DNA from: Streptomyces sp. DvalAA-14
GTDB lineage: Bacteria; Actinomycetota; Actinomycetes; Streptomycetales; Streptomycetaceae
NCBI RefSeq assembly: GCF_900091855.1
Contig: NZ_FMCH01000014.1
Span: 1-33,755 of the forward strand
Direction of reading: 5' to 3'
Length of the DNA: 33,755 nt
In this document: positions 2,551 to 27,154 of the stretch, in pieces
How the letters are laid out: each line of letters opens with the position of its first letter
How positions within the stretch are numbered: the first letter of the stretch is position 1
Program-made: the position numbers and the translations under genes
The notes under the pieces: generated by a model
What the model was told of the DNA's origin: nothing
The model's input: the letters and a program-made list of their open reading frames with translations, nothing else
The model's database searches: none

Positions 2551-2706
2551 GCGGGCCTCGGGCGGCTGGCCGTTGGCGGCGTGCTGGGGTGAACGGCGCG
2601 CGGCCGAGGGCCGAACGCGCTGTCTCATCATGCGATACGTCCCGGGCGCACCCGAAGTGCTCGTTAAACTGGGCCGACCGCATTCAACCCTGAGCGAGGA
2701 GCGCAC

Positions 2707-4065: not shown

Positions 4066-4123
4066 CGGAGTGCGGCCGGGCGGCACGAGGTTGACGCCGG
4101 CCGGCCGACGGCAGGAGAACGAC

Positions 4124-4156
4124 GCGGGGCGCGACGATGAAATCGTTGCGCCCCGC
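4124..4156 (+). terminator. Strong hairpin downstream of ask
   Basis: Two 15-base arms (4124-4138 and 4142-4156) pair fully, with a single G-U pair, around a GAA loop. There is no U-tract, which is common for actinomycete terminators. The hairpin lies 58 bases after the ask stop codon. Confidence 0.75.
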
Positions 4157-6398: not shown

Positions 6399-6463
6399 TC
6401 CGGCGAGCCACTGGCCCGGCGAGCCGGGCCTTCCGCGCCTGACCTGCCTCACCTTGCCGCTAC

Positions 6464-6498
6464 CGGCCCGGGAACCCTGACACGGAACTCCCGGGCCG
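6464..6498 (+). terminator. Hairpin after the sigma/membrane-protein operon
   Basis: Perfect 10-bp arms (CGGCCCGGGA 6464-6473 and TCCCGGGCCG 6489-6498) enclose a 15-base loop, 66 bases after the stop at 6398 and before the SURF1 gene. Confidence 0.6.
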
Positions 6499-6575
6499 AG
6501 AGGGCAGGTCCTGCCGGGAACCCGCTGCCGGGCTCCCATCCCGGGGCCGGTTGTCGTAGCGGGCGCGGCTCCCCG

Positions 6576-6589
6576 TACGGTGGTGGTTG
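6576..6589 (+). promoter_or_regulatory. -10 box of a probable leaderless SURF1 transcript
   Basis: TACGGT (6576-6581) fits the TAnnnT -10 pattern and ends 7 bases before GTG 6589, where transcription would start. No ribosome site precedes this GTG, which agrees with a leaderless message and decides the start codon. Confidence 0.5.
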
Positions 6590-7476
6590 TGTACCGGTTC
6601 CTGCTCACCCGTGGCTGGCTGGCAGTCAGCGTGCTCGCGCTGCTGGCCATCCCGTCCTGCGTGTTCATGGGGAGCTGGCAGCTGAGCCGGTTCGAGGCGC
6701 GGGTCGGGCAGGACAAGAACTCCCGCCACGACCAGCATGTGACCGCCACCGCGGCGCCGGTGCCGCTGCGGTCCGTGCTCCCCGGCCCCGGGTCCACCCT
6801 CCCCGGTGACGACTCCGGCCGCATCATCAGCGCCACCGGGCGGTACGACACCGGGCACCAATTCCTCGTCCCCGGCCGCACCCTCGACGGGCGCAACGGC
6901 TTCTACGTCCTCACCCCGCTGCGAGTCGCCGGTGGCGCCGCCCTCCCGGTCGTCCGCGGCTGGCTGCCGGGCGACGCGTCCGCCGCCGAGCACTCCGGTA
7001 CGGTGCCTGGCGCGCCGACCGGACCGGTCACGGTGGTCGGAGCCGCGCAGTACCCCGAGACCACCGACACCAGCGAAGCCCAGACCGGGGTGCTGCCGCC
7101 CGGCCAACTCGGCATGATCAGTGCGGCTTCTCTCGTCAACGTCCTCCCTTATCCGGTGTACGGCGGTTGGATCACCGCCTCGCAACCCGCCACGCCGCTC
7201 AAGGCAGTACCGCCCGCCGCGCCGCCGGACAGCGGTCTGGACCTCAAGGCATTCCAGAACCTCGGCTACACCGGGCAGTGGTTCGTCTTCGCCGGCTTCG
7301 TCGTTTTCATGTGGTTCCGGCTTGTCCGGCGCGAGGCCGAGACGCGGTCGGACGCCGCGCTCGGCCTCCTCCCGGAGGGCGATGATCCGGAACCCCGAGG
7401 CGGGGAACCCGACGGTGGGGAACCCGAGGGTGCCGGGCCGGAGAGTGCGGAGGCCGGGGCGGTTTCCCGCGCTTAG
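6589..7476 (+). CDS. SURF1 family cytochrome oxidase assembly protein
   Basis: SURF1 proteins help assemble the haem a/a3 centre of terminal cytochrome c oxidase in the membrane. This 295-residue protein has the family layout: an N-terminal membrane helix (about 10-28) running into GSWQLSRFEAR (28-38), then an outer domain with GRYD (85-88), RNGFYVLTPLRV (102-113) and LPVVRGWLP (119-127). A second helix is at about 226-245 (NLGYTGQWFVFAGFVVFMWF). A cytosolic tail with EPxGGEP repeats (268-287) is an addition. An upstream GTG at 6580 is possible, but family members start MYRFLLTR, matching GTG 6589. Confidence 0.9.
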   Translation: MYRFLLTRGWLAVSVLALLAIPSCVFMGSWQLSRFEARVGQDKNSRHDQHVTATAAPVPLRSVLPGPGSTLPGDDSGRIISATGRYDTGHQFLVPGRTLDGRNGFYVLTPLRVAGGAALPVVRGWLPGDASAAEHSGTVPGAPTGPVTVVGAAQYPETTDTSEAQTGVLPPGQLGMISAASLVNVLPYPVYGGWITASQPATPLKAVPPAAPPDSGLDLKAFQNLGYTGQWFVFAGFVVFMWFRLVRREAETRSDAALGLLPEGDDPEPRGGEPDGGEPEGAGPESAEAGAVSRA

Positions 7477-7704
7477 GCGGGGGCGGCTCGGCCGCCGGAC
7501 CGTAGCGGCCGGTCGGAGTCGCTGACCGGAGCTGGTGACCGGAGCCGGCCGCCGGACCCGCGGGCTGGACCCTCGGCCCGAGTGGGCAGCCGGCAGCCGG
7601 ACCGCCTGTCCGAGCCGCCGATCGGATCCCCACCCGGGCTGATCGGGACCCGGCGGGCCCGTCCTCGACCGGCCGCCTGCATCCCGGTCCCGCATGTCCT
7701 CCGC

Positions 7705-9555
7705 TCAGCGGGCCACGTGCCGCAGCGCGAAGGCCAACTCCAGGCGGACCTGCTTGATCCGCTCCTCCACCACCAGCGAGCCGTGCCCGGCGTCGTAGCG
7801 GTACACCTCGTGCGGCTTGTCCAGCTTCCGCAACTGCTCGACATAGTTGTCGATCTGGCGTATCGGGCAACGCGGATCGTTCGTTCCGGCGCTGATGTAA
7901 ACCGGGACGGCGACCTTGTCGACGTAGGTGAGCGGTGAGGACGCTTGGTAGCGGTCGGGAACCTCTTCCGGGGAACCGCCGAAAAATGTGCGGTCCAGGG
8001 ACTTCAGCGCCTCCATCTCGTCGGCGTAGGCCGTCGGATAGTCGGCGACCGGGACCGCGGCTATGCCCACCGTCCACGCCTCCGGCTGGGTACCCAGACC
8101 GAGCAGGGTCAGATAGCCGCCCCAGGAGCCGCCGGTCAGCACCAGCCGGTCCGGGTCGGCGAGTCCGGAGGAGACCGCCCACTCGCGGACGGCCGCGATG
8201 TCCTCCAGCTCGATCAGTCCCACCCGGTGTTTGAGCGCGTCCGTCCACTCCCGGCCGTACCCCGTCGAGCCCCGGTAGTTGACCCGGACCACCGCGAAGC
8301 CGTGGTCGAGCCAGGCAGCCGGCCCGGCCGCGAACGCGTCGGAGTCGTGCCAGGTCGGACCGCCATGGATCTCGAAGACGGTCGGATACGGGCCCACCGC
8401 CCGTTCCTGCCCGTCCTCGCCGTCGCCGGAGTCCGCGCCGGTCCGGGCCGGCCGCTGCACCAGCGCGTGGATGGGTCCGCCCGGCCCGTCCACCCACACG
8501 TCCTCCACCGGCACCGAGTCCGGTGCCCGCAGGCCCGGCGCCTCCAGTACGACGGCGCCCGCTGTGGACCGCACTATCGGGGGACGCTCGGCCGACGACC
8601 ACAGATATTCCACCGTGCCGTCCGGCCGGGCCGTCGCCCCGCCGATCGACCCCGCAGGGGTCTCGAGCGGTGCCAGACCGCCGGTCGCCAGGTCGTAGCG
8701 GAACATCTCGCCGCGAGCGTGGAAGTCGTGCACGACCAGCAGCGCCGAGCCATCCGGATACCACTCGGCGTGCACGTCGCCCGGCAGGTCGATCGACAGC
8801 GCGATCTCCTCGCCGCTCGCCACATCCCAGATCATCGGCAGCCACCGGTCGGCGCGCTGATGGCCGACGAGCAGCCGGGTGTCGTCGGGCACGGGTGCGA
8901 AGCCGAGGCAGTCCAGGCCCAGTTCGCGAGTGCCGCCTTCGGTGTCGTCCAGCTCGGCGACCGTCGAGCCGTCCGTGACCCGGACGACCCGCAGCGCGCT
9001 GTGCATCGCGTCACCGTGCTCGGTGTGCTCGATGACGACCAGCGTGCCGTCCTCCGAGAGATCTCCGACGCCCGCGGATTCGGCGTGCCGGTAGATCTCG
9101 TACGGCTCGGCCGCATCGGGCCGCACCACATGTACAGAGGTGCCCTCGTCGTCCGTGGACCGGCCGACCACCGCCGTTCCGCCGACGCCCAGCGCCAGCC
9201 CGGCCGGGTACGACGCAGTGAGCCCTGCTGCGGCCGGTATGTCCTCGCCACCGCCGAACGGCTGTTTCATCCAGACGCCGAACTCGTCCCCGTCCGTGTC
9301 CGAGAACCACCACACCCATTCGCCGTCCCGGCTCAGGGCGCCGTCCGTTGTGCCGTTCGGCCGGTCGGTCACCTGGCGGCGTCCGCCCGTCTCCCGGTTC
9401 CACGCATACAGTTCATACGTACCCGTCACGTTCGACACGAACAGGCTGCGCTCAGGGGCATCGGCAGCCCACTCCGGCAGACCGACGCGCGGCGCGCGGA
9501 ACCGCTTCTCCCAATCGGGCATGGACCCGCTCGCGGGTCCGGTGATCTCGTTCAT
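7705..9555 (-). CDS. S9 family serine peptidase (acylaminoacyl-peptidase-like)
   Basis: A 616-residue cytosolic peptidase of the prolyl oligopeptidase group. The first ~370 residues carry repeated beta-propeller strands (NVTGTYELYAWNRETGGRRQ, SRDGEWVWWFSDTDGDEFGV). The C-terminal alpha/beta-hydrolase has its nucleophile in GGSWGG (Ser477), then Asp560 (TNDPRCPIRQ) and His591 (YDAGHGS), a complete triad. There is no signal peptide. The ATG at 9555 has GATGGGGG just upstream and fits the family; a longer frame from 9723 would add low-quality sequence. It stands alone, convergent with SURF1. The 228-base gap between their stops holds only GC-rich imperfect repeats and no clean terminator. Confidence 0.93.
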   Translation of the reverse strand: MNEITGPASGSMPDWEKRFRAPRVGLPEWAADAPERSLFVSNVTGTYELYAWNRETGGRRQVTDRPNGTTDGALSRDGEWVWWFSDTDGDEFGVWMKQPFGGGEDIPAAAGLTASYPAGLALGVGGTAVVGRSTDDEGTSVHVVRPDAAEPYEIYRHAESAGVGDLSEDGTLVVIEHTEHGDAMHSALRVVRVTDGSTVAELDDTEGGTRELGLDCLGFAPVPDDTRLLVGHQRADRWLPMIWDVASGEEIALSIDLPGDVHAEWYPDGSALLVVHDFHARGEMFRYDLATGGLAPLETPAGSIGGATARPDGTVEYLWSSAERPPIVRSTAGAVVLEAPGLRAPDSVPVEDVWVDGPGGPIHALVQRPARTGADSGDGEDGQERAVGPYPTVFEIHGGPTWHDSDAFAAGPAAWLDHGFAVVRVNYRGSTGYGREWTDALKHRVGLIELEDIAAVREWAVSSGLADPDRLVLTGGSWGGYLTLLGLGTQPEAWTVGIAAVPVADYPTAYADEMEALKSLDRTFFGGSPEEVPDRYQASSPLTYVDKVAVPVYISAGTNDPRCPIRQIDNYVEQLRKLDKPHEVYRYDAGHGSLVVEERIKQVRLELAFALRHVAR

Positions 9556-9659
9556 GCCCCCATCATGCTCTGCCGCACGCACATTCGGTGAGATGGCCTG
9601 CGCAGCCTGTGGATAACTTCCGGCCGTGTTCGTCCCGCCCGCGCCGTCCGTTGTGTCGG

Positions 9660-10247
9660 TTATGCCGTCGCTGCTCCCGCGCCGGACTGGTCGGCCGTCC
9701 CGCGCACCACGACGACCGGGCACGGCGCGTGGAGTGTGACCGTATGACTGACGGAGCCGAGCAGCGTCGCGCGGAAAGTTCCGTGGCCGCGCACCCCCAC
9801 CACGACCAGTTCGGCGCCCACCGCACGGTCGAGAATGGCCTGAGCGGCATTGCCCATCACCACGACCTGGCTCAGCGGCGCGGCCTGCTCGCCCGGCAGC
9901 GCGGTGGCGACCGCCTCGAACAGTGCCTTGCGAGCCGGCTCCTCCAGATCGAGGTCGGCCGGCAGTTCAGGCAGTCCGGCCCAGCCCACGGCGCCCGGCA
10001 GCTCCCAGGCCATGACGGCTTCGACACTCGAACCGGTGAGGGCGGCCTGGCGGGCGGCCCACCGCAGCGCGAGCAGGGAAGGCTCCGAACCGTCCACGCC
10101 GACCACGATCCGGCCGGGGGCCGCCACCGATTCACTCATCGACGCGGCGGCCGCCGTGCCCAACGGTCCGGCGGGCGGTCCACCGGCCGGTTCGCCCGCC
10201 GGCAGTCCCTCGAACTCGCCGTCCGGATCGGCTGTCGGCTCGACCAT
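9660..10247 (-). CDS. Universal stress protein (UspA family)
   Basis: A single Usp domain occupies about residues 45-185 of 195. It opens RIVVGVDGSEPSLLALRWAA and ends with the nucleotide-binding signature G-2x-G-9x-G-S in VVVGVRGHGTFRATLLGSVS, so ATP binding is expected. A Gly/Pro/Ala-rich N-terminal tail of about 45 residues is not part of the domain. The start is ATG 10247, with GAGGAGA close upstream. In actinomycetes many such genes respond to hypoxia or redox; here the only regulatory hint is the AT-rich upstream segment with TATAGT on this strand (10336-10331), which would give a leader of about 75 nt. Confidence 0.93.
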   Translation of the reverse strand: MVEPTADPDGEFEGLPAGEPAGGPPAGPLGTAAAASMSESVAAPGRIVVGVDGSEPSLLALRWAARQAALTGSSVEAVMAWELPGAVGWAGLPELPADLDLEEPARKALFEAVATALPGEQAAPLSQVVVMGNAAQAILDRAVGAELVVVGVRGHGTFRATLLGSVSHTVTLHAPCPVVVVRGTADQSGAGAATA

Positions 10248-10698
10248 GGCCGTCTCCTCACGTTCTCCCCGCACACCTCTATACGCGGCTGCGCACGCCG
10301 ACCGACTGCCCCCGCGGCGGTAACACAAACACTATATTCAATTCGTATAACCCATATAATTCCGGAAAGAGAAATTCGATGGAATTCATTGTTTGCCGCT
10401 GTGTTTCCGTGGGATGATCTCTACGAGCCCCTCGGGCGGGTGCGGTCGGCAGACGCCGGTCAGCCGACGCCGCCCAGGGACGGTCGAGCCCACCGCGACA
10501 TCCCGCCACGCGGTCGGCCCTCCGTCATGAATGAGGTTGGGCAGCAGACACTTGAGCGTAATGGCCATCTGGTTCCTGCTGCCCACCGTGGCTCACGCCG
10601 CTCACCCGGTCGAGGGGAGCCCGGCGACGCCTGCGCCGGTAGCTTGCGGTCGCCCGAATCGTGGTTCGGGTAGTCGCGGGCGTCGGTCCCCTGCTGGC
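10248..10698. other. 451-bp intergenic region with an AT-rich island
   Basis: I recognise no gene here. Bases 10321-10390 contain only 21 G/C of 70, in sharp contrast to surroundings above 70%. The island holds GAATTC-type palindromes and a minus-strand TATAGT box suited to the universal stress gene. A 36-codon minus-strand frame (10389 to 10279) crosses it with three TTA codons and no ribosome site, so I do not call it. The right part has a weak hairpin (CCCGAA 10653-10658 with TTCGGG 10665-10670) that could end the TetR transcript. Confidence 0.5.
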
Positions 10699-11466
10699 TT
10701 ACGGGTGCGCCACGACGCATCCGTCCAGCAGCGGCCCCAACTCCTGAGCGACCGTGGTGAGCGCGCGAATGTTCTGTTCCGCGCGTGAGATGAGGATGGC
10801 ACCCTCCAGCGAACTGATCATGAGGGTGGCCAGAGAGGAGGACTGGACAGGCGGGACGCCCATCGAGGTCAGGGCCTGGGCGACGGGCACGTTCCAGGTG
10901 GCAAAGGCCGCTGCGGCGGCTTCCCGGGTGGAGGCGGTTGACTCCGCGCAGTCCACCGTCGCCGCGGCCACCGGGCAGCCGGGCGCGAAGCCGACGGCCT
11001 CGAACTCGTCCGTCCATTGGCGCACCATGGCCGCGAACAGCAGGCTGGGCGTGGGTTCCTCGGGCATAGCGGCGAGGAAGCGGGCGATGCGTCTGGCCGC
11101 GTAGCGGCCGGCCCAGGTGACGGCCTCGTTGACCAGTTGCTCCTTGCCGCCAGGGAAGTAGTGCTGGAGAGAGCCGCGGGGCGCCTGGGCATGGGTGGCG
11201 ACATCGCGCATGCCGGTCGCGTTCACCCCCTCGCGGCGGATGAGCTGGGCGGCGCTGAACACCATGCGCTCCCGAGGGCCGTGGGTGGGGCGCCTTGGGC
11301 CGCTGCTGGCGGTAATGGTGCCGGTGTCGGTGTGAGTGTCGGAGCCGGAGCCAGGTTCCGAGTTCGAGTCCGCGTGGGGTTCGCGGTTGGTGTCCGTGGT
11401 GGTGGGCGGCTGCTCGTCGTCGGCCGCTGTGCCCCCGCCTGCGGGCTGCCCTTTCGGAATCGCCAT
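10699..11466 (-). CDS. TetR family transcriptional regulator (LmrA/YxaF-like)
   Basis: The DNA-binding domain is at about residues 63-111 (RERMVFSAAQLIRREGVNAT, then RDVATHAQAPRGSLQHYF). The C-terminal half, with FAPGCPVAAATVDCAEST, matches the LmrA/YxaF subgroup of TetR repressors, whose known members sense drugs or flavonoid-like ligands. Before the HTH lies an unusual 60-residue hydrophilic leader (TDTNREPHADSNSEPGSGSDTHTD) not usual for the family. ATG 11466 has AGGAGAGGTGG upstream; an earlier ATG at 11514 is possible. The palindromes at 12066-12110, 600 bases away, are a plausible but unproven target. Confidence 0.9.
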   Translation of the reverse strand: MAIPKGQPAGGGTAADDEQPPTTTDTNREPHADSNSEPGSGSDTHTDTGTITASSGPRRPTHGPRERMVFSAAQLIRREGVNATGMRDVATHAQAPRGSLQHYFPGGKEQLVNEAVTWAGRYAARRIARFLAAMPEEPTPSLLFAAMVRQWTDEFEAVGFAPGCPVAAATVDCAESTASTREAAAAAFATWNVPVAQALTSMGVPPVQSSSLATLMISSLEGAILISRAEQNIRALTTVAQELGPLLDGCVVAHP

Positions 11467-11523
11467 CGCTGTCCGACCACCTCTCCTGATGAACGACCGC
11501 TCCATGTAGGACACGCCGGCTGA

Positions 11524-12081
11524 CTACCGCGCTCGCTGCGTCAGCCTATAGACGCCGGTCAGGCCCTCCCGGGTGCGAAGGCCACCGTCCGGTTCCAAGC
11601 GCCGGGCGAGGGCCGTCAGCAGCGCTGACCGTCCGTGCAGCACTGAGGCGGCGACTCGCTCCACCCCCCTGGCGCGGGCCCGGTGGAAGAGCAACTCGAG
11701 CATCGTGGTGGCCAGGCCTTGTCGCTGCCAGGCGTCGGCGATGAGCACGCCCAACTCCCCGACGCCCGGCTCCGGGCCGCAAGGAGCGGCGAGGCTGGCC
11801 AGGCCGAGCACATCGGTGCGGTCGGCGCCGTAGGCCACCACGGCGTCGTGCTCTCCGGGCGGCGCGGAGAGGGCGCTGTTCAAGTAGCCGCCGGGCCACT
11901 TCCGCAGCTGCCCGAAGAAGCGCAGGCGGATGGTTTCCGGGGAGCAGGCGGCGAACAGGGCCGCCAACGCGGGTCGGTCGGCCGGCTGGGCGGGGGCGAC
12001 ATGGCAGGGCAGGCCGGGCGGTGGGCCGGGTGGGAGCCGAAGGGCCGGAGAGTTGGACACATCCACTATGACAGCCGTCAT
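11524..12081 (-). CDS. GNAT family N-acetyltransferase
   Basis: The 185-residue product reads as a GNAT acetyltransferase: [15 protein letters not shown], then [20 protein letters not shown] (motif A, acetyl-CoA binding, ending QRQGLA) and [20 protein letters not shown]. The layout recalls bacterial acetyl-CoA-sensing or protein-lysine GNATs, but no substrate can be named. The chosen ATG (12081) lies inside the first palindrome. A minus-strand CATAAT box (12097-12092) ends 10 bases before it, so the message would be almost leaderless and transcription would be covered by whatever binds the palindromes. GTG and ATG alternatives nearby (12108, 12060) cannot be excluded. Confidence 0.82.
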
Positions 12082-12110
12082 AGAGCTCAGTATTATGTCG
12101 GCTGTCATAG
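12066..12110. promoter_or_regulatory. Double palindromic operator overlapping a near-consensus promoter
   Basis: CTATGAC-AGCC-GTCATAG (12066-12083) is a perfect 7-bp inverted repeat. A second, slightly imperfect copy lies at 12094-12109 (TATGTC-GGCT-GTCATA). Their outer halves also form a perfect 12-bp inverted repeat (12066-12077 with 12099-12110). On the plus strand ATGACA (12068-12073), 17 bases, then TATTAT (12091-12096) form a sigma-70 promoter with 5/6 matches in each box, reading into the dehydrogenase gene. The first palindrome covers the -35 box. The second covers the -10 box and start point. Binding by a dimeric repressor is inferred. Confidence 0.72.
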
Positions 12111-12207
12111 AGGGCAAGTCCACGAACCACCTGGTGGTCAGAAGAACGACCAGAAGAGCGGCCAAAAGAACGATCAGGAAATAATCGGAAGAAAGAGGCG
12201 GTGCAAG

Positions 12208-13155
12208 GTGACGACGACGGGTACGGCGGCGGGGGCCCAACGGGCAGCGGTGGCAACGGAAGTGGGTTTCCTCGGGCTGGGTGTCATGGGCCGGCCCATG
12301 GCGCTCAATCTGGCCCGGGCGGGCATCCCCCTCACGGTCTGGAACCGGACATCCGCGCGCTGCGCGCCGCTGCGCGCGGCGGGTGCGAGCGTCGCGAGGT
12401 CGCCGGCCGAGGTCTTCCAACGGACTGACGTCGTCTTCGTGATGCTGGCCGACGAGACGGCCATCGATACGACTCTCCGGCGGGGCACTGCGGAGTTCGC
12501 CGGATATGTCGGCGGCCGGACGATCGTGCACATGGGCACGACGTCCCCCGGCTATTCGCAGGCGCTGGAGGCCGACGTGGCTGCGGCAGGCGGCAGTTAC
12601 GTGGAGGCGCCCGTGTCGGGGTCCCGGGTTCCGGCTGAGCGGGGGGAATTGGTCGCGATGCTCGCAGGGGAGGAGGGGGCGGTCGGGCGGGTGCGTCCGT
12701 TGCTGGCACCGATGTGCCGAGAGGCGTTCGTGTGCGGCCCGGCGCCGAACGCGCTGCTGATGAAGCTTTCGGTGAACCTTTTCCTGATCACCCAGGTCAC
12801 CGGCCTGACCGAAGCATTCCACTTCGCCGAGCAACAGGGGCTGGACCGGGGACGGTTCCTTGAGGTGCTCGACGCCGGGCCGATGTCGAGCGGGGTGTCC
12901 AGGATGAAGGCGCCGAAGTTGCTGACGCGGGACTTCGCCGTGCAGGCGGCCGCGTTGGATGTGCTGAAGAACAACGCGCTGATCGCCGAGGCGGCCAGGA
13001 AATCGGATGTGGCGTCGCCGCTGTTGGACGCGTGCCATGCGCTCTTCGCCGAGACGGTCGCCCTGGGCCATGCGGACGGCGACATGATCGCTGTCCTGCA
13101 CGCGTTCGAGGCGCGCACGGCCGGCATACGCGAGGGCGGCCGGGTGACCGCCTGA
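12208..13155 (+). CDS. NAD(P)-dependent beta-hydroxyacid dehydrogenase (3-hydroxyisobutyrate dehydrogenase family)
   Basis: The Rossmann motif [20 protein letters not shown] (20-39) opens the NAD(P) domain, and VWNRT (44-48) suggests NADP preference through Asn-Arg after strand 2. The substrate motif [17 protein letters not shown] (132-148) and catalytic Lys186 ([10 protein letters not shown]) are present, followed by the all-helical C-terminal domain. Length (315 aa) is right for the family, which oxidises 3-hydroxyisobutyrate, tartronate semialdehyde or related acids, or reduces imines in some actinomycetes; substrate cannot be told here. The start is GTG with AGAGG 9 bases upstream. The leader of about 105 bases contains an A/G-rich repeat (AGAACGACCAG, AGAACGATCAG). 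It is divergent from the GNAT gene across the double operator. Confidence 0.9.
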
Positions 13156-13255
13156 AGAGAACCGGCTCCTGCGGCATGGGCGGACACGAATTCACCCTTT
13201 AGGCTGCAACCTCCGTACTTGCAGGATGAATTGACGTGAAGGGGAGGGCGGACCG

Positions 13256-13843
13256 ATGGGCGTGCCGATTCGGAGGGCCGGGCAGGGCGATCGGGAAGCG
13301 GCGGTCGGGTTGCTGCACAAGGCGTTCGCGCGGGACGCGGTCAGCCGCTGGGTCTTCCCCGACCCGGACCAGCTGGAACGGAAGCACGGTGCATTGATGG
13401 CGGCTTTCCTGGACATGGCACTGACGGAGGGCTATGTGGACCTCGCGGAGGACGGGTCGGCGGTCGCGCTCTGGACGTCCATACCCGCGGGCGACCACGG
13501 GGACGGCGACCCGGTCGGCTTCCGTGCCTCGATCGACCCGGACAACGAGCGGATCGAGCAGATCGCCCGCCTCACCGGCGCCGCCCATCCGAAGGACAGG
13601 GCCCACGAGTACCTGATGCTGATCGGCGTCGACCCCGACCTGCAAGGTCAGGGCCTCGGTGGGGGACTGATAGCCAACGTCCTGGCCCGTTGCGACCGTG
13701 AGGGCCGGCACGCCTATCTCGAAGCGAGCAGCCTCCGCAGCCGCGCGCTCTACGAACGGCTGGGCTTCACATTCATGGGCCACACGATCGACCTTCCGGA
13801 CGGTCCGCCGATGTATCCCATGTGGCGCGAGCCCCGGTCCTGA
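13256..13843 (+). CDS. GNAT family N-acetyltransferase
   Basis: This is a 195-residue acetyltransferase. Motif A is YLMLIGVDPDLQGQGLGGGL, with the Q/R-x-x-G-x-G/A acetyl-CoA loop (QGQGLGG). Motif B-like YERLGFTFMG is near the end. The N-terminal part (FARDAVSRWVFPDPDQLERK) matches GNAT proteins common in streptomycetes. The ATG has GGGGAGGG 6 bases upstream. No substrate can be named. It lies 100 bases after the dehydrogenase and could share its transcript, but the gap and its own good ribosome site leave that open. Confidence 0.92.
   Translation: MGVPIRRAGQGDREAAVGLLHKAFARDAVSRWVFPDPDQLERKHGALMAAFLDMALTEGYVDLAEDGSAVALWTSIPAGDHGDGDPVGFRASIDPDNERIEQIARLTGAAHPKDRAHEYLMLIGVDPDLQGQGLGGGLIANVLARCDREGRHAYLEASSLRSRALYERLGFTFMGHTIDLPDGPPMYPMWREPRS

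Positions 13844-16747: not shown

Positions 16748-16748
<1 letters not shown>
16736..16748 (+). promoter_or_regulatory. -10 box of a probable leaderless transcript
   Basis: CATAAT (16736-16741, 5/6 to TATAAT) ends 6 bases before GTG 16748, placing the expected transcription start on the start codon. The GGAG right before the GTG is too close to act as a normal ribosome site. Confidence 0.5.
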
Positions 16749-18643
<1,895 letters not shown>

Positions 18644-18774: not shown

Positions 18775-19218
18775 ATGGCAGACGACGAGTACCTCCTCGA
18801 CGCAGCCCGGGCCGTGCGCCCGCACCTTCTCGAACTGGCGCCGGTCGCGGGCGAGTCGATCCGGACGGCGCTCAACCGGCTGCTGAACGCCCGCCCGGCC
18901 GGACCCGCCGAGGAGGTCGCCGCCGTCCTGCGCGCCGACGCGCGGGTGTGGACGTGGGTGCAGGAGTGGGTCCGGGAGTGGACAGCGCAGACCGGCGCCG
19001 ACGGTCTGCCGGGGGCCGTCCCGTCACCGGGCGGAAGCGACCCGGGGCGCGTCACGTTCCCGCGGATCACCCGGCAGGGGCCACTGGCCGTTCCGGCGCC
19101 GGGGTACAGCTGCCCGGTGCACCGCTCGGGGCGGCCGTGGTTTCGCCACAGTGTCGCCGACCCGGTGCCGAAATGCCCCGAGCCCGGCTGCGGCCGGCTG
19201 TTCACGCCGGTGGACTGA
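18775..19218 (+). CDS. Small protein with CxxH/CxxxxC zinc-ribbon-like C-terminus
   Basis: I do not recognise the family. The 147 residues split into a helical N-terminal half (EYLLDAARAVRPHLLELAPV, ADARVWTWVQEWVREWTAQT) and a C-terminal segment with YSCPVHRSG and KCPEPGCGRLF. The Cys-x2-His and Cys-x4-Cys pairs, about 20 residues apart, look like a metal-binding ribbon. CACACT (18763-18768) ends 6 bases before the ATG, and there is no ribosome site, again suggesting a leaderless message. The next gene starts 10 bases after its stop, so the two form an operon. A role with the convergent CHAT operon is possible but only by position. Confidence 0.75.
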   Translation: MADDEYLLDAARAVRPHLLELAPVAGESIRTALNRLLNARPAGPAEEVAAVLRADARVWTWVQEWVREWTAQTGADGLPGAVPSPGGSDPGRVTFPRITRQGPLAVPAPGYSCPVHRSGRPWFRHSVADPVPKCPEPGCGRLFTPVD

Positions 19219-19227
19219 GGCTCCGAC

Positions 19228-20148
19228 GTGCCTGTCTTCTGGAACGCGCTGACCACGAAGCTCACCGATCGTTGGGTTGCGTCCGCCGGGCCGGCGTCCG
19301 TGTACTGGCTGGGGCTGCTGGTGGCCTGGTACGCCGGGCACGGCGGATCGGCCGCCGCCAAGAGGCGATTGGACATGCTGGGCGCGCAGCCCGCGGGAGT
19401 GCAGGTCGCGACGCTCGCGGCCGCGCTGGTGGCACTGCTCGCCTCGGGTGTGATCGTGCAGCGCCTCACCTATCCGGTGTTGCGCCTGCTGGAGGGGCAC
19501 TGGCCCCGGTTCCTGGACCGGCCGCGGCGGCGGTTGGCCGGGCGGGCCGCGGGGCGTCGCGACGACCGCTGGGGACAGTGGTGCGAGCTGGAGGGGCGGA
19601 TCCACGACGGGACCGCCCGCGACGCCGACCTCGTCCGCCACGGGCGACTCGACAGCTGGCTGCGCCACCGGCCGGCCGGGGCAGAGGCGATGCCGACCAG
19701 GCTCGGCAACATCCTGGGCGCGGCCGAGAGCCGCTCGTGGCACAAGTACGGCCTCGATGCGGCTGTGGTCTGGCCACATCTCTGGCTGTTGCTGCCGCAG
19801 CAGACGCGCGAGGACGTGGCGGCGGCGCGCAAGCAGGTCGACTCGGCGGCGGCTGCCGGGCTCTGGGCGTTGCTGGCCCTGCCGGCCGCCGTGTGGACGC
19901 CGTGGGCGGCGCCGGCCGCGGTAGCGGTCGTGCTCGTCTGCTGGGGCTGGTTGCTGCCGGACGCCGCGGTGGATTTCGGTGATCTGCTGGAGGCCGCGTT
20001 CGATCTCCACCGGATCGATCTGTACCGGGCGCTGCGCTGGCCACTGCCCGCGAATCCCGTCGCGGAGAGAGCGGCGGGGGAGAGCGTGACGGCGTACCTG
20101 CACCGAGGCGGCATCCGCCCGGAACCGGAATTCACCGGCGACCGGTGA
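19228..20148 (+). CDS. Four-segment membrane protein of unknown function
   Basis: The 306-residue product has membrane segments at about 20-37 (ASVYWLGLLVAWYAG), 60-80 (ATLAAALVALLASGVIV) and a pair near 210-245 (LWALLALPAAVWTPWAAPAA, VAVVLVCWGWLLPDA). A soluble loop of about 120 residues between the pairs contains SRSWHKYGLDAAVVWPHLWL and QTREDVAAARKQVDSAAAA. A C-terminal soluble part holds FDLHRIDLYRALRWPLPANP. The GTG start has TGAGG (overlapping the previous stop) 7 bases upstream, indicating translation coupled to the zinc-ribbon protein. I cannot assign a family; transporter motifs are absent, so a membrane scaffold or sensor is as likely. Confidence 0.77.
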   Translation: MPVFWNALTTKLTDRWVASAGPASVYWLGLLVAWYAGHGGSAAAKRRLDMLGAQPAGVQVATLAAALVALLASGVIVQRLTYPVLRLLEGHWPRFLDRPRRRLAGRAAGRRDDRWGQWCELEGRIHDGTARDADLVRHGRLDSWLRHRPAGAEAMPTRLGNILGAAESRSWHKYGLDAAVVWPHLWLLLPQQTREDVAAARKQVDSAAAAGLWALLALPAAVWTPWAAPAAVAVVLVCWGWLLPDAAVDFGDLLEAAFDLHRIDLYRALRWPLPANPVAERAAGESVTAYLHRGGIRPEPEFTGDR

Positions 20149-20170
20149 CGGGCCGCCGCTGGGCGCGGCA

Positions 20171-20198
20171 GCCGCCAGCCGCCAGCCGCCAGCCGCCA
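20171..20198 (+). repeat. Four perfect copies of a 7-base unit
   Basis: GCCGCCA is repeated four times without error in the 101-base gap between the convergent membrane-protein and CHAT genes. No other feature is seen in that gap. Confidence 0.85.
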
Positions 20199-20249
20199 GG
20201 CCAGGAGGCCCGCGCCGGCGCCCGCGCCCGTCGCCCTCCCCCCTGTCCG

Positions 20250-23200
20250 TCAGGGACCGAAATGCACGAACGGCCCCCATACGAAGGGGGACGCCGCCTC
20301 GTCCCGCGCCGATCGCACGGCTTCGTGGAGCGCGCGCGCCGAGCGGTCGGCGTCGGTCGCCAACCGGTGGAAATCCGCGGCGACATGGGCCGCCGACCGA
20401 TCTCTGACGGTCCACTGCGTACCGATGACATGGCGGAAGCCGGCCACGAGGAAGGCGCCCGCGAGGTGGGCGACCTCGTCGGCCAGGTCCATCGTCCCCG
20501 AGGCGGTTTCGCAGGCGGAGAGGAAAGCCAACTCCGGTCCGTCCAGGGGCAGATCAGCGATGTCCGTCGCTTCGAGCAGTCGGCGGGTCGGCAGGTAGTC
20601 GTACGGGAGCAGACCGGCGGCGGCGTCGGGAGCCAGCGGGTCCTGGACGGCGTGCCCGGCGAAGTGGAACCAGGAGTGGCCGGGCAGTTCGTCCAGGACG
20701 CGCTGCCGGGTGGCGGCCGGGCCGATGAGGTCGGCGCCGAGCGGGCGGGTACGGCGTATCCGGGTGAGTTCGGCGACCGCGTGGGGCAGGGGCTCGGTAC
20801 CTGGCGCCTGGGGCGCCACCGCCAGCAGCCGGGGTGTGCCCGGCCGCGCGGCCGGCGGATCCGCGCTCGCCGTACGCCCGGCGAGCGCCGCCAGCGCCCG
20901 GACGGTCGGGGTGTACGACGACACCACGTGATCCAGCGTCCCGCCTGCCGGCGTCCCGCCCGCCGGACTCCCGTCCCCAACACTCCCGTCCCCAACACTC
21001 CCCTCCCCTGCAGGTCCGTTCCCCGCGCGCCCGCCTGCTGCGTTCGCCCCGACCCCGCGGTCGAACGGGTGGGACCCTGCCGCGTGCAGCGGCAGAAAGG
21101 AGAGCAGACCGGTCGGGCACCACCACACGCGCGGCAGGACACCGCCGGGCGCTCGCGGTCCGGCGAGGCCGAAACCGGTCAGCGCGGGAGCCACGGTGCT
21201 GTGCCACAGCCAGCGCAGCACGGCCGGAACCGTCGTACGCTCGGCGAACTGCCTTTCGTTCAGGGGCGCCTGGGAATCGCCGGCGGTACGTACCGCGGCC
21301 CGGAAGCGCGCGGTCTGCCGGATCAGGGTGTTCGCGGTGAGCGAGGGCAGCGGGCAGACCCGGATGCCGCCGCGGGCGATCAGGACGGCGTCGCAGCGGA
21401 TGCGGCTGACGTTGAGGACGATCACGGTGCGGTCGCCGATTCCGTCGGCCAGGCCCTGAAAGGCGGGTGGTTGGAGGAAATCCGCGAAGAGCGGCAGCTC
21501 GCGGATCGTCCGGAGCAGCCCGGCTCGTTCCTCGGCCCACCGCGCGCGCTGCTCGGATCCCGCGGAGGCCGCCTCGCGGTCGTGCAGCCGGCGGCTCAGT
21601 TCCACGAACCGCCCGGTGGTGCGCGGCAGATGACGTGACAGATCGTCGAGGACGGTCCGGCTCTCCCACGCCCGGTCCAGCAGGATGCTCCGGCCCTGTT
21701 CGAGCAGTTCCACCGCGTGGGCGGGATCACCGGCCTGCAGAGCGCAGGCCGCGGCGTCGGACGCGAGACCGAAGAAGTCCGCCGCCACTCTCTCCCGGGA
21801 GCGCCGGTCGAGCGCGGGGGATGCCGCCTGGTCCACCGCCGCCAGTGCGAGTTCGTACGCCGTCACGGCGCCGCGCCAGTCACCGTCAGCGGCGGCATAC
21901 GTGGCCCAGGCCACGGCTCCCCGGGCCCGGCGGGCATCGGGTACGTGCGCGGCGCCGGTGACGACGCCGCGCAGCAGGCCGATCGCTTCACGGCGGGGGG
22001 CGGGGTCGCCGGAGCGCTCGGATCGTGTCCGCAGGCAGTCCGCGAGGGCGAACACCGCGGCGGTGGCGTCGACCCGTTCGTCGGACCAGCGCCGGTGGAT
22101 GTCGCGCAGCAGGGCTTCCGCCTCGTCCAGGGCCGCCTGGCCGGCGTTGTCCGCGCCGACGCGGTCCAGCAGGGTCAGCGCGAGGTTGAACAGGGTTCGG
22201 TCGCGGTCCGGTGTGTCGAGGTTCTTTGCGAAGCGGCGCAGGATCTCCCGGTAGCCGGCCTCCGCGTCGCGCAGCGCCTCGATGTCCTTGGTCTCCTGGT
22301 AGAGGGCCCGGTGGGCGGAGGCCAGGTTGCCGATCTGGACCGACAGGTTGCCGTGCTCGTCCGGCGCGGCCTTGACGGCGGCCTCGTACGCCACCAGCGC
22401 CTCGTCGAGGTCGCGGCGGCGGCGGGCGGTGTCCCGGCCGATGCCGTGCCGGTCCAGCAGGGCGTTGCCGAGGTGGGTGAGGACCACTTGGCGGAAGGGG
22501 TCGCCCGCCGGAGCCGTCGGCTCCGCCTCGCGGAAGCAGCCGAAGGCGTGGTCGAGGCAGCTGACGTCGCCGGAGTGGGCGTAGCGCAGCAGGAGGATCT
22601 GGCCGAGCCCGTTGAGCGCCACCCCGTAGCTGATGTCCTCGCGGGGCAGGCCCTGGAGGGCTTCGCGCAGATCGCGCTCGGCCGCGACGAGCAGCCCCCG
22701 ACCGGGTTGCACCTGGTGCCAGTCCCCCAGGACGCCGGCGCGGTCGTGCAGGTGGCCGGACCGGGCGCCGTGGCCGGGCGGCAGGAGGTCGATCGCCCGG
22801 GTCAGTGCCGTGGTCGCCGCCTCGAAGTCCGCCGGTTCCTGGCTGCGTCCGGCCTCGGTCTGCAGGATGTTGCCCGACTGCGCGTGGAACAGGTGTACTT
22901 GGGGGTCGTCGTCTCCGAACTCCAGCGCCGATCCGATCGCCGCACGGGCCTGGACGAGCAGGTCGGCGTCACGGGTCACGTTGTACTGGTCGAGCAGGAC
23001 GACGGCCGCCGTGTAGGCGTTCATGGCATAGGCGGAGCTGCGGGTGGGCGTCATCCGGTAGGAGGCGACGGCGAGTTGGACGGCCTCGGCGAGCTTCCCG
23101 GTACCGGCGCCGTTCTGGTGCTGGGCCCTGAGGTTGCCGGCGAGCATGGTCAGCAGCGAGCCGCGGTGCGGCGAGTCCTCCGGTGCCAACGTGAGCGCCT

Positions 23201-23720
23201 CGCGGCAGGCGGCTTCCGCTGCCACCAGATCGGACGGCCGGTTGGAGATGTCGTGCCGATCGCCCAGCGCGGCGGCCAGGTTGTGCCGGTGCAGGTACGC
23301 TTCCTCACCGGCCGGGCTGAGCCGGACGGCCTCCTCCAGCACGTCGACCGCCTCGTCGAAACGGTCCATGCCCTCGCCGGCGTAGGCGTTGCGGCGGCGC
23401 AGGGCGCGCCCCAACAGGCCCAGGACAGGGGCTCGATAAGGACTGTCCGCAGTCAGCAGCGCCCGGGCGCGGCGTAGTTCGGCAATGGCGGCGTCGAGCG
23501 TGGCCACGTCGCCGGAGCCGAAGAAGGCCTCCAGCAGCGCCTCTCCGCGGCTTGCGGCGGCCAGGGCGGCGGCGTCGTCGGGCACGATCGGCGTCCCCTG
23601 CGTCCCCTGCGTCCCCTGCGTCCCCTGCGTCCCCGGCGAACCGGGTGCTGCCGGCCCGCCGGGGTTCCCGCTGTCCGAGGCGTCCCCGGCGTCCCCGCCC
23701 GCCGCCGGCGTCCTCGTCAT
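20250..23720 (-). CDS. TPR-repeat CHAT-domain protease (caspase clan)
   Basis: This is a 1156-residue effector-type protein. Residues about 60-740 are helical repeats of TPR kind (ADFEAATTALTRAIDLLPPG, RDLDEALVAYEAAVKAAPDE). About 770-1156 form a CHAT domain (PF12770), a clan CD cysteine protease. His1023 (WFHFAGHAVQD) and Cys1070 (LAFLSACETASG) form an intact dyad, and WTVRDRSAA plus the terminal WGPFVHFG fit the family. CHAT proteases such as separase-like TPR-CHAT (Craspase) cut partner proteins when triggered. Two repetitive low-complexity stretches (GTQ repeats near 30-45; GDGSVGDGSPAGGT near 930) are extras. ATG overlaps the previous gene's TGA by 4 bases, with GGGAGGG upstream. It is the last gene of a three-gene operon. 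Confidence 0.93.
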   Translation of the reverse strand: MTRTPAAGGDAGDASDSGNPGGPAAPGSPGTQGTQGTQGTQGTPIVPDDAAALAAASRGEALLEAFFGSGDVATLDAAIAELRRARALLTADSPYRAPVLGLLGRALRRRNAYAGEGMDRFDEAVDVLEEAVRLSPAGEEAYLHRHNLAAALGDRHDISNRPSDLVAAEAACREALTLAPEDSPHRGSLLTMLAGNLRAQHQNGAGTGKLAEAVQLAVASYRMTPTRSSAYAMNAYTAAVVLLDQYNVTRDADLLVQARAAIGSALEFGDDDPQVHLFHAQSGNILQTEAGRSQEPADFEAATTALTRAIDLLPPGHGARSGHLHDRAGVLGDWHQVQPGRGLLVAAERDLREALQGLPREDISYGVALNGLGQILLLRYAHSGDVSCLDHAFGCFREAEPTAPAGDPFRQVVLTHLGNALLDRHGIGRDTARRRRDLDEALVAYEAAVKAAPDEHGNLSVQIGNLASAHRALYQETKDIEALRDAEAGYREILRRFAKNLDTPDRDRTLFNLALTLLDRVGADNAGQAALDEAEALLRDIHRRWSDERVDATAAVFALADCLRTRSERSGDPAPRREAIGLLRGVVTGAAHVPDARRARGAVAWATYAAADGDWRGAVTAYELALAAVDQAASPALDRRSRERVAADFFGLASDAAACALQAGDPAHAVELLEQGRSILLDRAWESRTVLDDLSRHLPRTTGRFVELSRRLHDREAASAGSEQRARWAEERAGLLRTIRELPLFADFLQPPAFQGLADGIGDRTVIVLNVSRIRCDAVLIARGGIRVCPLPSLTANTLIRQTARFRAAVRTAGDSQAPLNERQFAERTTVPAVLRWLWHSTVAPALTGFGLAGPRAPGGVLPRVWWCPTGLLSFLPLHAAGSHPFDRGVGANAAGGRAGNGPAGEGSVGDGSVGDGSPAGGTPAGGTLDHVVSSYTPTVRALAALAGRTASADPPAARPGTPRLLAVAPQAPGTEPLPHAVAELTRIRRTRPLGADLIGPAATRQRVLDELPGHSWFHFAGHAVQDPLAPDAAAGLLPYDYLPTRRLLEATDIADLPLDGPELAFLSACETASGTMDLADEVAHLAGAFLVAGFRHVIGTQWTVRDRSAAHVAADFHRLATDADRSARALHEAVRSARDEAASPFVWGPFVHFGP
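23591..23635 (-). repeat. Five tandem copies of a 9-base unit in the CHAT gene
   Basis: GCGTCCCCT (plus strand) is repeated five times, the last with one change, coding the GTQGTQGTQGTQGTP stretch near the CHAT protein N-terminus. The copies are nearly identical, so the array is probably young and variable between strains. Confidence 0.9.
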
Positions 23721-24565
23721 CCCCCGTCGCCCTCCCCGCTCTCCTCCCACAGTCCCATCGGCAGATCGTCCCCGTGCCGCCAGAGCTGGCTTTTCGGACC
23801 GGTCAGGACTTCCTGGGCCTCGCGGACGAAGTCCCGCAGTGCCTCATGACAGCGCGGACTCCACGCCCACAGGAAATCGATCATGTCGTCGACCATGTTG
23901 ATCAAGCGATCGGTGGGACCGCCGCCGCGGAAGTGCTCGAGGAAGCGTTCCTCGGCCGCCTTGTCGTCAACCGTCCCGAACCAGATCATCGCGTTGAGGG
24001 TGAGCATCTGGCCGACGAGTTCGATGAGCGCGACGATGTTGTCCGGGGTGTCCGGTTTCCCCGTCGCGAAGAGGATTCCGCGGTAGTAGTCCGGCAGCAA
24101 CTCCGCGATGTCCCTCGGGGTGTTGCTGCCGGCGTTGCTCCGGGGCGGCGGTGCGAGCAGGTGGTTGTCGACGGAGACGGCCAGCAGATTGGCGGTTTGG
24201 TGGTCGAGGAAGCCCAGCACGAGTCCCGGGCCGTCGATCAGGGTGAGCATCGTGCCGTTCGGGCGGCGGCCCAGCCGGGTCCGGCTGATCCGGGCCGGCT
24301 CGTAGGAGCCGGTCACCCTTCCCTTGCGGGCGATGAGCAGCCGCCGGGAGGTGATCATCGCGACCCGGCAGTCGAACGCGTCCTCCACCGCGATGACGCG
24401 CACGATCTCGCCGGGCTGAAGGGCCGCCCGCAGTGCGTCCTGGTTGTCGGCGAGGCGGCGCCGGGCGACCTTCCCGTCGCCGCCCAGCCGCGCGGCCAGC
24501 CCTTCGTCCAGTTCAGGACGTGATCCGAACACAATCGTCCCCCGTTCCAGAAAAGTTGGCGCCAC
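23717..24565 (-). CDS. PH-like-domain protein, partner of the CHAT protease
   Basis: The N-terminal half (about 45-135) has a beta-rich pattern of a bacterial PH-like (YokE-type) domain: LQPGEIVRVIAVEDAFDCRV, ITSRRLLIARKG, RLGRRPNGTMLTLIDG, ANLLAVSVDNHL. The C-terminal half (about 155-275) is helical (IVALIELVGQMLTLNAMIWF, HEALRDFVREAQEVLTG) without a membrane segment. No enzyme motif is seen. GTG 24565 follows the previous stop directly (TGAGTG) and gives 282 aa. GTG 24532 has a much better ribosome site (GGGGGAC) and would give 271 aa. The ATGA overlap with the CHAT gene means the two are made together, so it probably regulates or targets the protease. Confidence 0.78.
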   Translation of the reverse strand: MAPTFLERGTIVFGSRPELDEGLAARLGGDGKVARRRLADNQDALRAALQPGEIVRVIAVEDAFDCRVAMITSRRLLIARKGRVTGSYEPARISRTRLGRRPNGTMLTLIDGPGLVLGFLDHQTANLLAVSVDNHLLAPPPRSNAGSNTPRDIAELLPDYYRGILFATGKPDTPDNIVALIELVGQMLTLNAMIWFGTVDDKAAEERFLEHFRGGGPTDRLINMVDDMIDFLWAWSPRCHEALRDFVREAQEVLTGPKSQLWRHGDDLPMGLWEESGEGDGG

Positions 24566-25105
24566 TCACCGGTCGATGCCGGTACGCGTTCCGGCCCCGG
24601 CCCCGGTCCCGGCACCGGTCGTCCCGGACTGCCGGGACGCTCGTTCCAGCGCCCGGAACGCGCGCTTGCGCTGCCGGATCAGGATGCTGGGCGCGTGTGC
24701 CACGCCGACCGCCGCGTAGACGCGGTTCATCACGGCGAAGCCCAGCGCCATCGGGCCGGGCCTCATAGCGCTCCCGTAGTGCGCCGGGGTGAGTTCCGCC
24801 GCCCAGCCGGTCACCCGGTACCCCCCGGCGCCGATGGGCCGTACCTCCATCGCCAGTACGCCGCCCTTGCTGCTCACCTGCCACTTCGCGCCGCGGGCGG
24901 TCCGTTCGGCGGCGAACGGCTTGCGGCCCAGCGTCCGGGTGATGACCGACGAGGTGGCCCGCCCGGCCACTGCCACGACGGTGTCGAGCGGAAGGTCCAC
25001 CTCGACGTATGCGGGTGTGCTGATGCGGGTGGTCAGGTGCTTGAGCCAGCCGACCCCGACCACGACGAGCGCGAGCAGGAGGAGCAGGAAAAGCGAGAAA
25101 CCCAT
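24566..25105 (-). CDS. Membrane-anchored small protein, first gene of the CHAT operon
   Basis: The protein has 179 residues. An N-terminal membrane segment (FSLFLLLLLALVVVGVGWL, 3-21) is followed by a soluble domain: YVEVDLPLDTVVAVAGRATS, KWQVSSKGGVLAMEVRPIGA, GYRVTGWAAELTP. The strand-and-helix pattern resembles a small SRPBCC-like or heat-shock-chaperone-type domain, but no family is certain. The C-terminal tail is a Gly/Thr repeat (GTGAGAGTRTG). ATG 25105 has GGAGGA 6 bases upstream. It opens the operon and abuts the PH-like gene, so it may tether or sense for the CHAT protease. Confidence 0.75.
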   Translation of the reverse strand: MGFSLFLLLLLALVVVGVGWLKHLTTRISTPAYVEVDLPLDTVVAVAGRATSSVITRTLGRKPFAAERTARGAKWQVSSKGGVLAMEVRPIGAGGYRVTGWAAELTPAHYGSAMRPGPMALGFAVMNRVYAAVGVAHAPSILIRQRKRAFRALERASRQSGTTGAGTGAGAGTRTGIDR

Positions 25106-25411: not shown

Positions 25412-27154
25412 GTGGCGAAGGTGGACCGCGGAAGGCCGCACCGCCCGGCTGGGGATCCGCAGGCGCACACCGGCCCGTTATCGGTACGGCACCGCACCGC
25501 ATGGCTGTTACGGGTGAACCGCCTCTACGGGACGAACGACGAATGGGCCACCCAGGGCTACGCGTTCGCCCGGGCCTTCGAAGGCGGCGCGTGGCCGCGC
25601 GAAGCGGATCCGAGCAAGATCTCCCGCTGGGAGACCGCCCGTATCGCGGTGCCGTGGCGGGCCGTTCGCCGCTACGAGGAACTGCTCGGCGTCCCGGCAC
25701 GTCAGCTCACCTCGGCCGTCGACACCATCAACCGCTACGCCGTCCCCTCCACCGGGCCGCTGCCCCTGCTCGCCCGGCCCCCGGCCGGGGACGAGGCGCT
25801 GGAGCGGCGGATCGACGCCGTCATGGAGGCGGTGACGGCCAACAGCCCCGTCTCCGCGGCGGACTGGGACGATCTGACCGCCGCGCTCGCCGCCGCCCCC
25901 GGCATCCGGTTGCGGGCCGGGGAGTGGACGGCGGTCGCGGAACGGCTGCTCACCGAGACGATCGTGGCCGACGGCCCGGAGTGGAAGCAGCGCTTCGAGG
26001 CGTTCAGCCGTCTGCTGGGGCACCCGTCGGCGCAGCGTGCCGCGGTGGCCGCGTGCGCCGGCTGGGCGGCGGACCCGACCAACCCGGCCTTCGTGGAGAC
26101 CGTCTGCCTGCTGGACACCAGCGCCCACCCGGACGCCGCCCGGCACGTACTGGCGCAGCTGACCGCCCCCACCAACGACGACGCCTTCTACGGCGCCCTG
26201 CTCGCCTGCGTGCGCAAGGTCAAGCACGGCCACTTCACACCTGAGCAGGTGCGCGAGGTCTGCGCGGTCGCTGTCTGCCTGCTGCACGACACGAGCGTCC
26301 GCTACGACGACGCCCGCAGCCTGGCCGGCTCCGTCCTCGCCCTCGTCCCGCCCGCCGACCGGTCGACCGAAGCACGCCGGACCCTGTACCGCCTGTCCCG
26401 GGCGGCCACCGAGGCTTCCGCTCCGCCGTCGCGCGCGGCCGAACGGTGGCGCGGGGAAGACGAGTTGACGTCCTCTGCCGGCGGGCAGCCCGGCAGCAAT
26501 CCCGGCGGTCGTCCGGGCGGTCACCCCGGTGCCCACCTGGTCGGCCATCTTGTCGCCGCCAGTGTGTCGTCGCTGCCGCGCGAGGTGCCGCGTTTCGTCG
26601 ACGGCGTCCTTCCGCTCCTCGTCGACGAGATCCTCCACGCGCCGGTGTCGGACGTACGGCTGCATGCCGCGCTGTTCCTGGCCGCGACCCCCTACCGGGG
26701 CCCGCTCGCCGCGGCGATGAGCGGCGAGACGGCCCGGTTGCATGTCGGGCGCGACGCGAGGGTGCTGGTGCGGCTGCTCCAGGCCCTGCGCAGCTTCGGG
26801 GGCGCCGCCGAACGGCCCATGGTGGAGCGGATGGTCCTCGGCGCCGGCATCCCGGCCCCGGTCGTCGAGGCCGCCGCGGGGGCCCTGGGTCATCTGGGCG
26901 GCCGCAGCACCGGGACTTTTTGGGACGCGGCCCTGGCCCGGCACGCTCCGCCGGCCCGCGCCGGAAACCAGGCCGGGGTCCGCGCTTTGGAGAGCGTCGT
27001 CTACTCGCTCGGCATAAGCGGCGAGGCGGCCCGGCTCAAACGCCTCGCGGACGACCCGCGCGCCCCGCACTCGGTGCGGTCCCGCGCCGACTGGTGGCTG
27101 CGCCTGCCGCCGTACGTCCGTTCCGGGCCGGCGGGGCAGTTGGCGCCCGGGTAG
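25412..27154 (+). CDS. Large HTH regulator with helical-repeat C-terminus
   Basis: The 580-residue protein has an N-terminal helix-turn-helix of XRE type: HRTAWLLRVNRLYG (27-40), then SKISRWETARIAVPWRAVRR (68-87), the second part being the recognition region. The remaining 480 residues are Ala/Leu-rich helices with repeated pairs (VRLHAALFLAATPYRGPLAA, VVEAAAGALGHLGGRSTGTF, SVVYSLGISGEAARLKRLAD) suggesting HEAT-like repeats. There is a Gly/Pro/His linker around 352-372. GTG 25412 has the optimal AAAGGAGG 7 bases upstream. Being divergent from the CHAT operon across a palindrome, it is the obvious candidate for its regulator and may also autoregulate. Streptomycetes carry many large regulators with this architecture; no orthologue can be named. 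Confidence 0.82.
   Translation: MAKVDRGRPHRPAGDPQAHTGPLSVRHRTAWLLRVNRLYGTNDEWATQGYAFARAFEGGAWPREADPSKISRWETARIAVPWRAVRRYEELLGVPARQLTSAVDTINRYAVPSTGPLPLLARPPAGDEALERRIDAVMEAVTANSPVSAADWDDLTAALAAAPGIRLRAGEWTAVAERLLTETIVADGPEWKQRFEAFSRLLGHPSAQRAAVAACAGWAADPTNPAFVETVCLLDTSAHPDAARHVLAQLTAPTNDDAFYGALLACVRKVKHGHFTPEQVREVCAVAVCLLHDTSVRYDDARSLAGSVLALVPPADRSTEARRTLYRLSRAATEASAPPSRAAERWRGEDELTSSAGGQPGSNPGGRPGGHPGAHLVGHLVAASVSSLPREVPRFVDGVLPLLVDEILHAPVSDVRLHAALFLAATPYRGPLAAAMSGETARLHVGRDARVLVRLLQALRSFGGAAERPMVERMVLGAGIPAPVVEAAAGALGHLGGRSTGTFWDAALARHAPPARAGNQAGVRALESVVYSLGISGEAARLKRLADDPRAPHSVRSRADWWLRLPPYVRSGPAGQLAPG

Follow-up and report, generated by a model that had tools for sequence, protein, structure and literature searches.

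Introduction

Multicellular bacteria commonly encode caspase-like proteases, and their targets and mode of killing are mostly obscure. Which proteins place such a protease in the cell, and which carry out its effect, is the question raised by a locus of Streptomyces sp. DvalAA-14, which was analysed here in a window of 33,755 nucleotides (the whole stretch of DNA considered). A preliminary description of the window had recognised an operon for a membrane-anchored protein (A), a PH-like protein (B) and a TPR-CHAT protease (C), in which the two partners would anchor or gate the protease.

Results

The operon belongs to a unit of five genes

The reading frames of A, B and C (Table 1) are all open, and their third-position GC contents (0.91, 0.87 and 0.88, respectively) are as high as in real genes here. 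The junctions were read directly from the DNA. The stop codon of A abuts the start codon of B without overlap (TGAGTG), and the stop codon of B shares bases with the start codon of C (ATGA). We placed the start of C at the ATG at 23720; the mechanical reading frame, which opens at a GTG at 23750, is 10 codons longer. The open frames, the coding-like GC and the two junctions show that the three-gene operon is real. Its surroundings had been drawn too small, since two genes on the opposite strand, D and E, were missed, and the gene unit comprises five genes, A to E, at about 18775-25105. The GC content of the window is uniform (67-75%), and no tRNA gene was found in it.

Table 1. Coordinates of the genes and domains in the window.
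Feature	Position	Strand	Description
Gene A	24566..25105	(-)	179 aa; opens the operon; N-terminal membrane helix and a soluble domain without a Pfam family
Gene B	23717..24565	(-)	282 aa; PH-like head and constant helical half; GTG start abuts the stop of A
B residues 32-137	24155..24472	(-)	Predicted PH fold, with seven strands framed by two helices
B residues 151-276	23738..24115	(-)	Constant helical half with motifs RDIP and DDMIDFLWAW, common to all 35 aligned rows whatever the head
Gene C	20250..23720	(-)	1156 aa; TPR-like helical repeats, with the CHAT protease domain at the C-terminus
CHAT domain of C	20256..20927	(-)	Pfam CHAT, 2.8e-37; contains His1023 and Cys1070 (ATG numbering)
Gene D	18775..19218	(+)	147 aa; N-terminal part helical, C-terminus with a zinc-ribbon-like Cys/His motif; runs towards C
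Gene E	19228..20148	(+)	306 aa; predicted to be a membrane protein; its end and that of C lie 101 bp apart

No Pfam model scored above its cut-off for A, B, D or E. Sequence searches of Pfam, NCBIfam, PADLOC and PDB gave nothing firm for A, B and E, and those of Pfam and PDB gave nothing firm for D, whose weak PDB rows were led by a sensor protein (E 0.0035). PADLOC matched none of A, B, C and E at 0.01 and none of 16 relatives of E at 0.1. In the mostly open-access literature covered here (abstracts and main texts on CATRA, CATASP, TPR-CHAT, EACC1, defence by CHAT-domain proteins and protease neighbours of gasdermins), no account of A, B, D or E was found.

Two further genes flank the unit. 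Upstream of D, a gene at 16748-18643 (+) encodes a 631-residue protein with a match just short of the cut-off to a bacterial PH family (bPH_6, 21.6 versus 22 bits), for which no relation to the module was shown. Diverging from A, a gene at 25412-27154 (+) encodes a 580-residue protein with a weak helix-turn-helix match, a possible regulator.

C retains the catalytic pair of CHAT proteases

C is a CHAT-family protein (129.2 bits versus a Pfam cut-off of 24) in which the catalytic His/Cys pair is retained, and protease activity is predicted from its sequence. Counted from the ATG at 23720, the pair falls on His1023 and Cys1070, exactly the positions given before. Both residues are present in 54 of 56 CHAT reading frames from related loci; in the remaining two the Cys is conserved and the alignment is gapped at the His, so the loss of the dyad in relatives, which would have spoken against the proposed system, was not seen. 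The long TPR sensor array that had been described is a weaker call: TPR matches are present in C, and all of them lie below the Pfam cut-offs (the best at 21.1 versus 25.7 bits).

The genome of the window has two CHAT matches in 7.94 Mb. The second protein (L009 2880-7070, contig C162) is 1396 residues long, and the PDZ matches at its C-terminus do not reach their cut-offs.

B combines a constant half with exchangeable heads and directly precedes TPR-CHAT genes

The description of B as a PH-like domain plus helices was borne out for the PH-like half by a confident predicted model and by structure matches. According to this model the N-terminal half of B is predicted to adopt a PH fold of the PH-domain superfamily, with putative lipid or membrane binding. 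The Foldseek and VIA structure matches span mainly residues 27-141 and barely cover the helical half, for which we make no claim of a new fold. Of 35 relatives of B, 18 carry a membrane helix at the start, in one case together with a PH domain, while 4 have a PH domain alone and 13 have neither. B is thus a constant helical half to which interchangeable heads are joined: a predicted PH fold, a membrane helix, both or neither.

B stands directly before a TPR-CHAT gene in all three loci fetched, namely the window, a Streptomyces geranii locus (L003) and a Saccharothrix locus (L004), and no homologue of B without CHAT, which had been named as evidence against the system, occurred among them. Among the 54 rows of the tree, the three CHAT domains linked to B group together as a single clade (support 100/97), and none of 500 label shuffles was equally clustered. 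In S. geranii, whose locus was found through B, the gene order is B1, TPR-CHAT, convergent E and D, and a second B; in two further genomes the locus tags place exactly three genes between two copies of B, as in S. geranii. B itself was found in no genome but the window's own, both among 35 congeners and among 394 genomes of the family (6 candidates scored per genome). A further sample of 199 genomes gave no B, another of 150 genomes gave one, which is S. geranii itself, and none was found on plasmids. B is rare, and in the three loci fetched it is tightly tied to TPR-CHAT.

The order in Saccharothrix is CATASP, CATRA, B, TPR-CHAT, CATASP, CATRA, with a further TPR-CHAT gene on the other strand. 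The two CATASP-CATRA pairs and the two TPR-CHAT genes occupy positions 2416-13590 of the locus, B lying between the first CATRA gene and its TPR-CHAT gene, and no reading frame of E was found in 15.1 kb. Since this B-CHAT pair lies inside a CATRA locus, B is tied to caspase-dependent CATRA conflict systems. B could then be a swap-in regulator of CATRA-type ternary systems, which binds and restrains TPR-CHAT instead of or alongside the CATRA protein, membrane placement being secondary. The gene order, in which a second CATASP-CATRA pair follows, agrees with this explanation, as do the 13 of 35 relatives without PH domain or membrane helix, by which membrane placement is not universal. We judge it rather improbable, as its evidence comes from a single Saccharothrix locus and none of the 19 window ORFs scanned matched CATRA or CATASP.

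D and E recur beside CHAT genes

E is conserved at the S. geranii locus (48% identity by BLASTP, 51% in the alignment), and in both loci it is preceded by a small gene D with the C-terminal Cys/His motif. Hydropathy gave three hydrophobic stretches for E and four for the S. geranii relative, and from its sequence E reads as a predicted all-helical membrane protein. The structure predicted from these two sequences (pLDDT 52.1) is of too low quality to compare folds; that E is a pore or channel is a guess.

A profile made from the two sequences matched 148 of 394 family genomes, the own genome included (5 candidates scored per genome), and we inspected 60 places. These are not random but three sets of 20: the best 20 profile matches apart from the window (G020:C128 skipped), the next 20 (G289:C2:5685615 skipped), and 20 weaker matches picked by hand (E about 5e-13 to 6e-10), the rest, including short partial matches, being left out. 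A CHAT reading frame lay within 1.2 kb of E in 49 of these 60 places and within 3 kb in 50, and it was not found in 10. With two CHAT matches in the whole genome of the window, such proximity is improbable by chance; we estimate that it would arise by chance in roughly one percent of cases or fewer, also in genomes with several times as many CHAT genes. When the window, the S. geranii locus and three plasmid loci were added (65 loci), CHAT and E were head-to-head in 32, co-directional in 20 and tail-to-tail in 2 (the window and S. geranii), and no CHAT was detected in 11. A profile of D detected the gene no more than 150 bp upstream of E at 24 of the 60 places (29 of the 65 loci), and at some E loci without a recognisable D other small genes occupy its position. 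D and E are therefore commoner partners of such proteases than A and B.

In a wider sample of the phylum, E was present in 5 of 296 genomes, two of them outside the family, and none was found in viral contigs or phage records. Five of the ten E places without CHAT (L067, L069, L072, L081 and L088, near 9500-10700) adjoin genes which we take to be succinate dehydrogenase genes. The absence of CHAT from ten places, five of them in these surroundings, suggested that E has other roles as well. At one of the five (L067), a DUF4132/DUF7737 protein is encoded next door.

D and E are carried by plasmids in two phyla

On a Rhodococcus opacus plasmid the gene order is D, E, TPR-CHAT. On the conjugative plasmid pC052_A of Nostoc sp. 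C052 (L105 8614-14722), D and E stand directly before a gene for a protein of 1557 residues with Peptidase_C14 (3.7e-12), NA-iREase1, NACHT and WD40 repeats, which has an NLR-like design. The pairing with TPR-CHAT in Rhodococcus and with this caspase-NACHT-WD40 protein in Nostoc suggested that D-E partners more than one kind of caspase-clan protease, and these parts of the module span two phyla. Of 10 plasmid records with relatives of E, nine were read (all but H7). A CHAT or caspase gene was annotated within about 2.1 kb in 6 (H4, H5, H6, H8, H11 and H13) and none in 2 (H10 and H12); the stretch in H9 carries no annotation. An Acaryochloris plasmid (H16) carries a relative of D for which the annotation shows no protease at distances up to 7 kb. 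In the S. goshikiensis plasmid locus, E and the CHAT gene are separated by a gene for 350 residues that matched no Pfam family (L106 9924-10976).

A, B, D and E could serve solely as regulators or anchors of a protease whose target belongs to housekeeping (mycelial development or the stress response, for instance) and not to defence. Some relatives of E do stand away from CHAT in apparently core chromosomal surroundings, and E is common in the family whereas B is not (148 versus 1 of 394 genomes). However, the patchy spread, the plasmid copies in Rhodococcus, Streptomyces and Nostoc and the pairing of D-E with the caspase-NACHT-WD40 protein look like a mobile conflict cassette, and we consider a housekeeping function unlikely.

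A is an accessory part at most

A has a single hydrophobic stretch, at residues 3-21, in agreement with the N-terminal membrane helix assigned to it earlier, and each of its five relatives has such a helix. In Streptomyces sp. NPDC090306, A and B bear consecutive locus tags. A more distant relative, a paralogue in the genome of the window (L008 9355-9951, contig C555), has no C-like reading frame in the surrounding 19.9 kb, and none of the other 34 congeners possesses it; the flanking genes presumably encode glycine/serine metabolism proteins and an Rhs-type protein. This is one case of the small-gene homologues without CHAT that had been expected to contradict the system. Given this locus and its absence from the congeners, A is an accessory part at most and the weakest link of the module.

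The claim that the partners anchor or gate the protease is partly supported. It is supported for B, which goes with TPR-CHAT of one clade in all three loci fetched and whose PH and membrane-helix heads fit anchoring. It is not supported for A, which is not a fixed partner, and it omitted the commoner partners D and E. That A and B adjoin C by chance and have no common function would fit the solitary A relative and the rarity of both genes. The TGAGTG and ATGA junctions speak against it, and so do the three B loci, which come from two families, all have B adjacent to CHAT and share one CHAT clade; on these grounds chance was rejected for B. We regard this explanation as very improbable.

Discussion

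Our preferred reading, in which we place about even confidence, is that A-E form a membrane-linked protease module where B would hold C at the membrane and active C would trip the predicted membrane protein E. The trigger, which may be a phage or stress product, is probably sensed by the TPR-like region of C, by analogy with other TPR-CHAT proteins. The constant half of B would dock C, and its head, a predicted PH fold here and a membrane helix in most relatives, would place the pair at the membrane. This tethering is suggested by the head exchange over one constant half and by the position of B, always directly before C. The active CHAT domain may then cleave or release D and/or E as its substrate, D being a candidate zinc-ribbon adaptor and E a candidate membrane effector by their linkage to CHAT. 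E would damage or depolarise the membrane and arrest the cell, an end of the abortive-infection type, and A, as a membrane part, would have an accessory role outside the core. Against the module stand the ten of 60 E places without CHAT, the recognition of D in only 24 of 60 places, the rarity of B, the B-CHAT pair without E in Saccharothrix, the A relative without CHAT and the lack of E matches among viral contigs and phage records.

In a broader and more tentative reading, which is possible but which we would not favour, D-E is a portable membrane executioner cassette for caspase-clan sensor proteases, B is a tether with an exchangeable PH or membrane-helix head, and the whole is an unnamed membrane-bound inflammasome-like module. 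In actinomycetes the cassette would be paired with TPR-CHAT proteins; in Nostoc its partner would be a caspase-NACHT-WD40 receptor. The locus provides B as a candidate tether and, besides it, the widespread but unnamed membrane protein E with its small zinc-ribbon-like partner D, both of which recur beside TPR-CHAT and once beside a NACHT-type receptor. With these candidates, the membrane target of a bacterial CHAT protease becomes directly testable.

Comparison with known systems

In bacterial gasdermin systems a protease gene neighbours a membrane-acting partner. The locus resembles them in this idea, but E has no PADLOC match and reads as all-helical. Csx29 of Craspase, in the available part of its description, has a TPR region followed by a CHAT protease and works with a CRISPR effector. 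Identity of C with Csx29 was rejected, as NCBIfam Csx29 scored 15 bits versus a cut-off of 300. The 19 window ORFs scanned gave no Cas match.

The preliminary description did not recognise a described system. This has to be qualified, since caspase/CHAT conflict systems, CATRA and EACC1, are described and B lies inside one CATRA locus. In the available part of PMC8195603, CATRA (CASPASE and TPR Repeat-Associated) systems are caspase-dependent ternary conflict systems; the main text of PMC7159879 does not contain the word CATRA. Like them, the window has a TPR-CHAT protease with small partners in an actinomycete, and the B-CHAT pair occurs within such a locus in Saccharothrix. However, the 19 ORFs gave no match to CATRA-N, CATRA-C or CATASP, and B, D and E are unrelated to CATRA proteins by Pfam. 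CATRA-N/CATRA-C and CATASP beside a TPR-caspase, the arrangement that marks these systems, is present in Saccharothrix and, by the 19 ORFs scanned, absent from the window.

EACC1-caspase systems, as given in the available part of PMC7159879, are two-gene membrane-associated systems prevalent in actinobacteria, with a small 5' gene encoding one membrane helix. The small membrane protein was proposed there to activate the caspase, with the trigger at the membrane. The window likewise has a small single-helix 5' gene ahead of a caspase-superfamily gene. In contrast, the caspase of EACC1 systems is N-terminal with variable C-termini in that part of the source, whereas the 3' gene here, C, carries CHAT C-terminally after TPR-like repeats, and the window adds B, D and E. 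A and B matched no Pfam model at E 0.1, a search that includes the EACC1 domain only if it is in the library. The window thus lacks the tested defining features of both systems and is classed with neither. In conclusion, it is most likely a membrane-tethered variant of caspase/CHAT conflict systems, whose closest described logic is that of EACC1 and CATRA.
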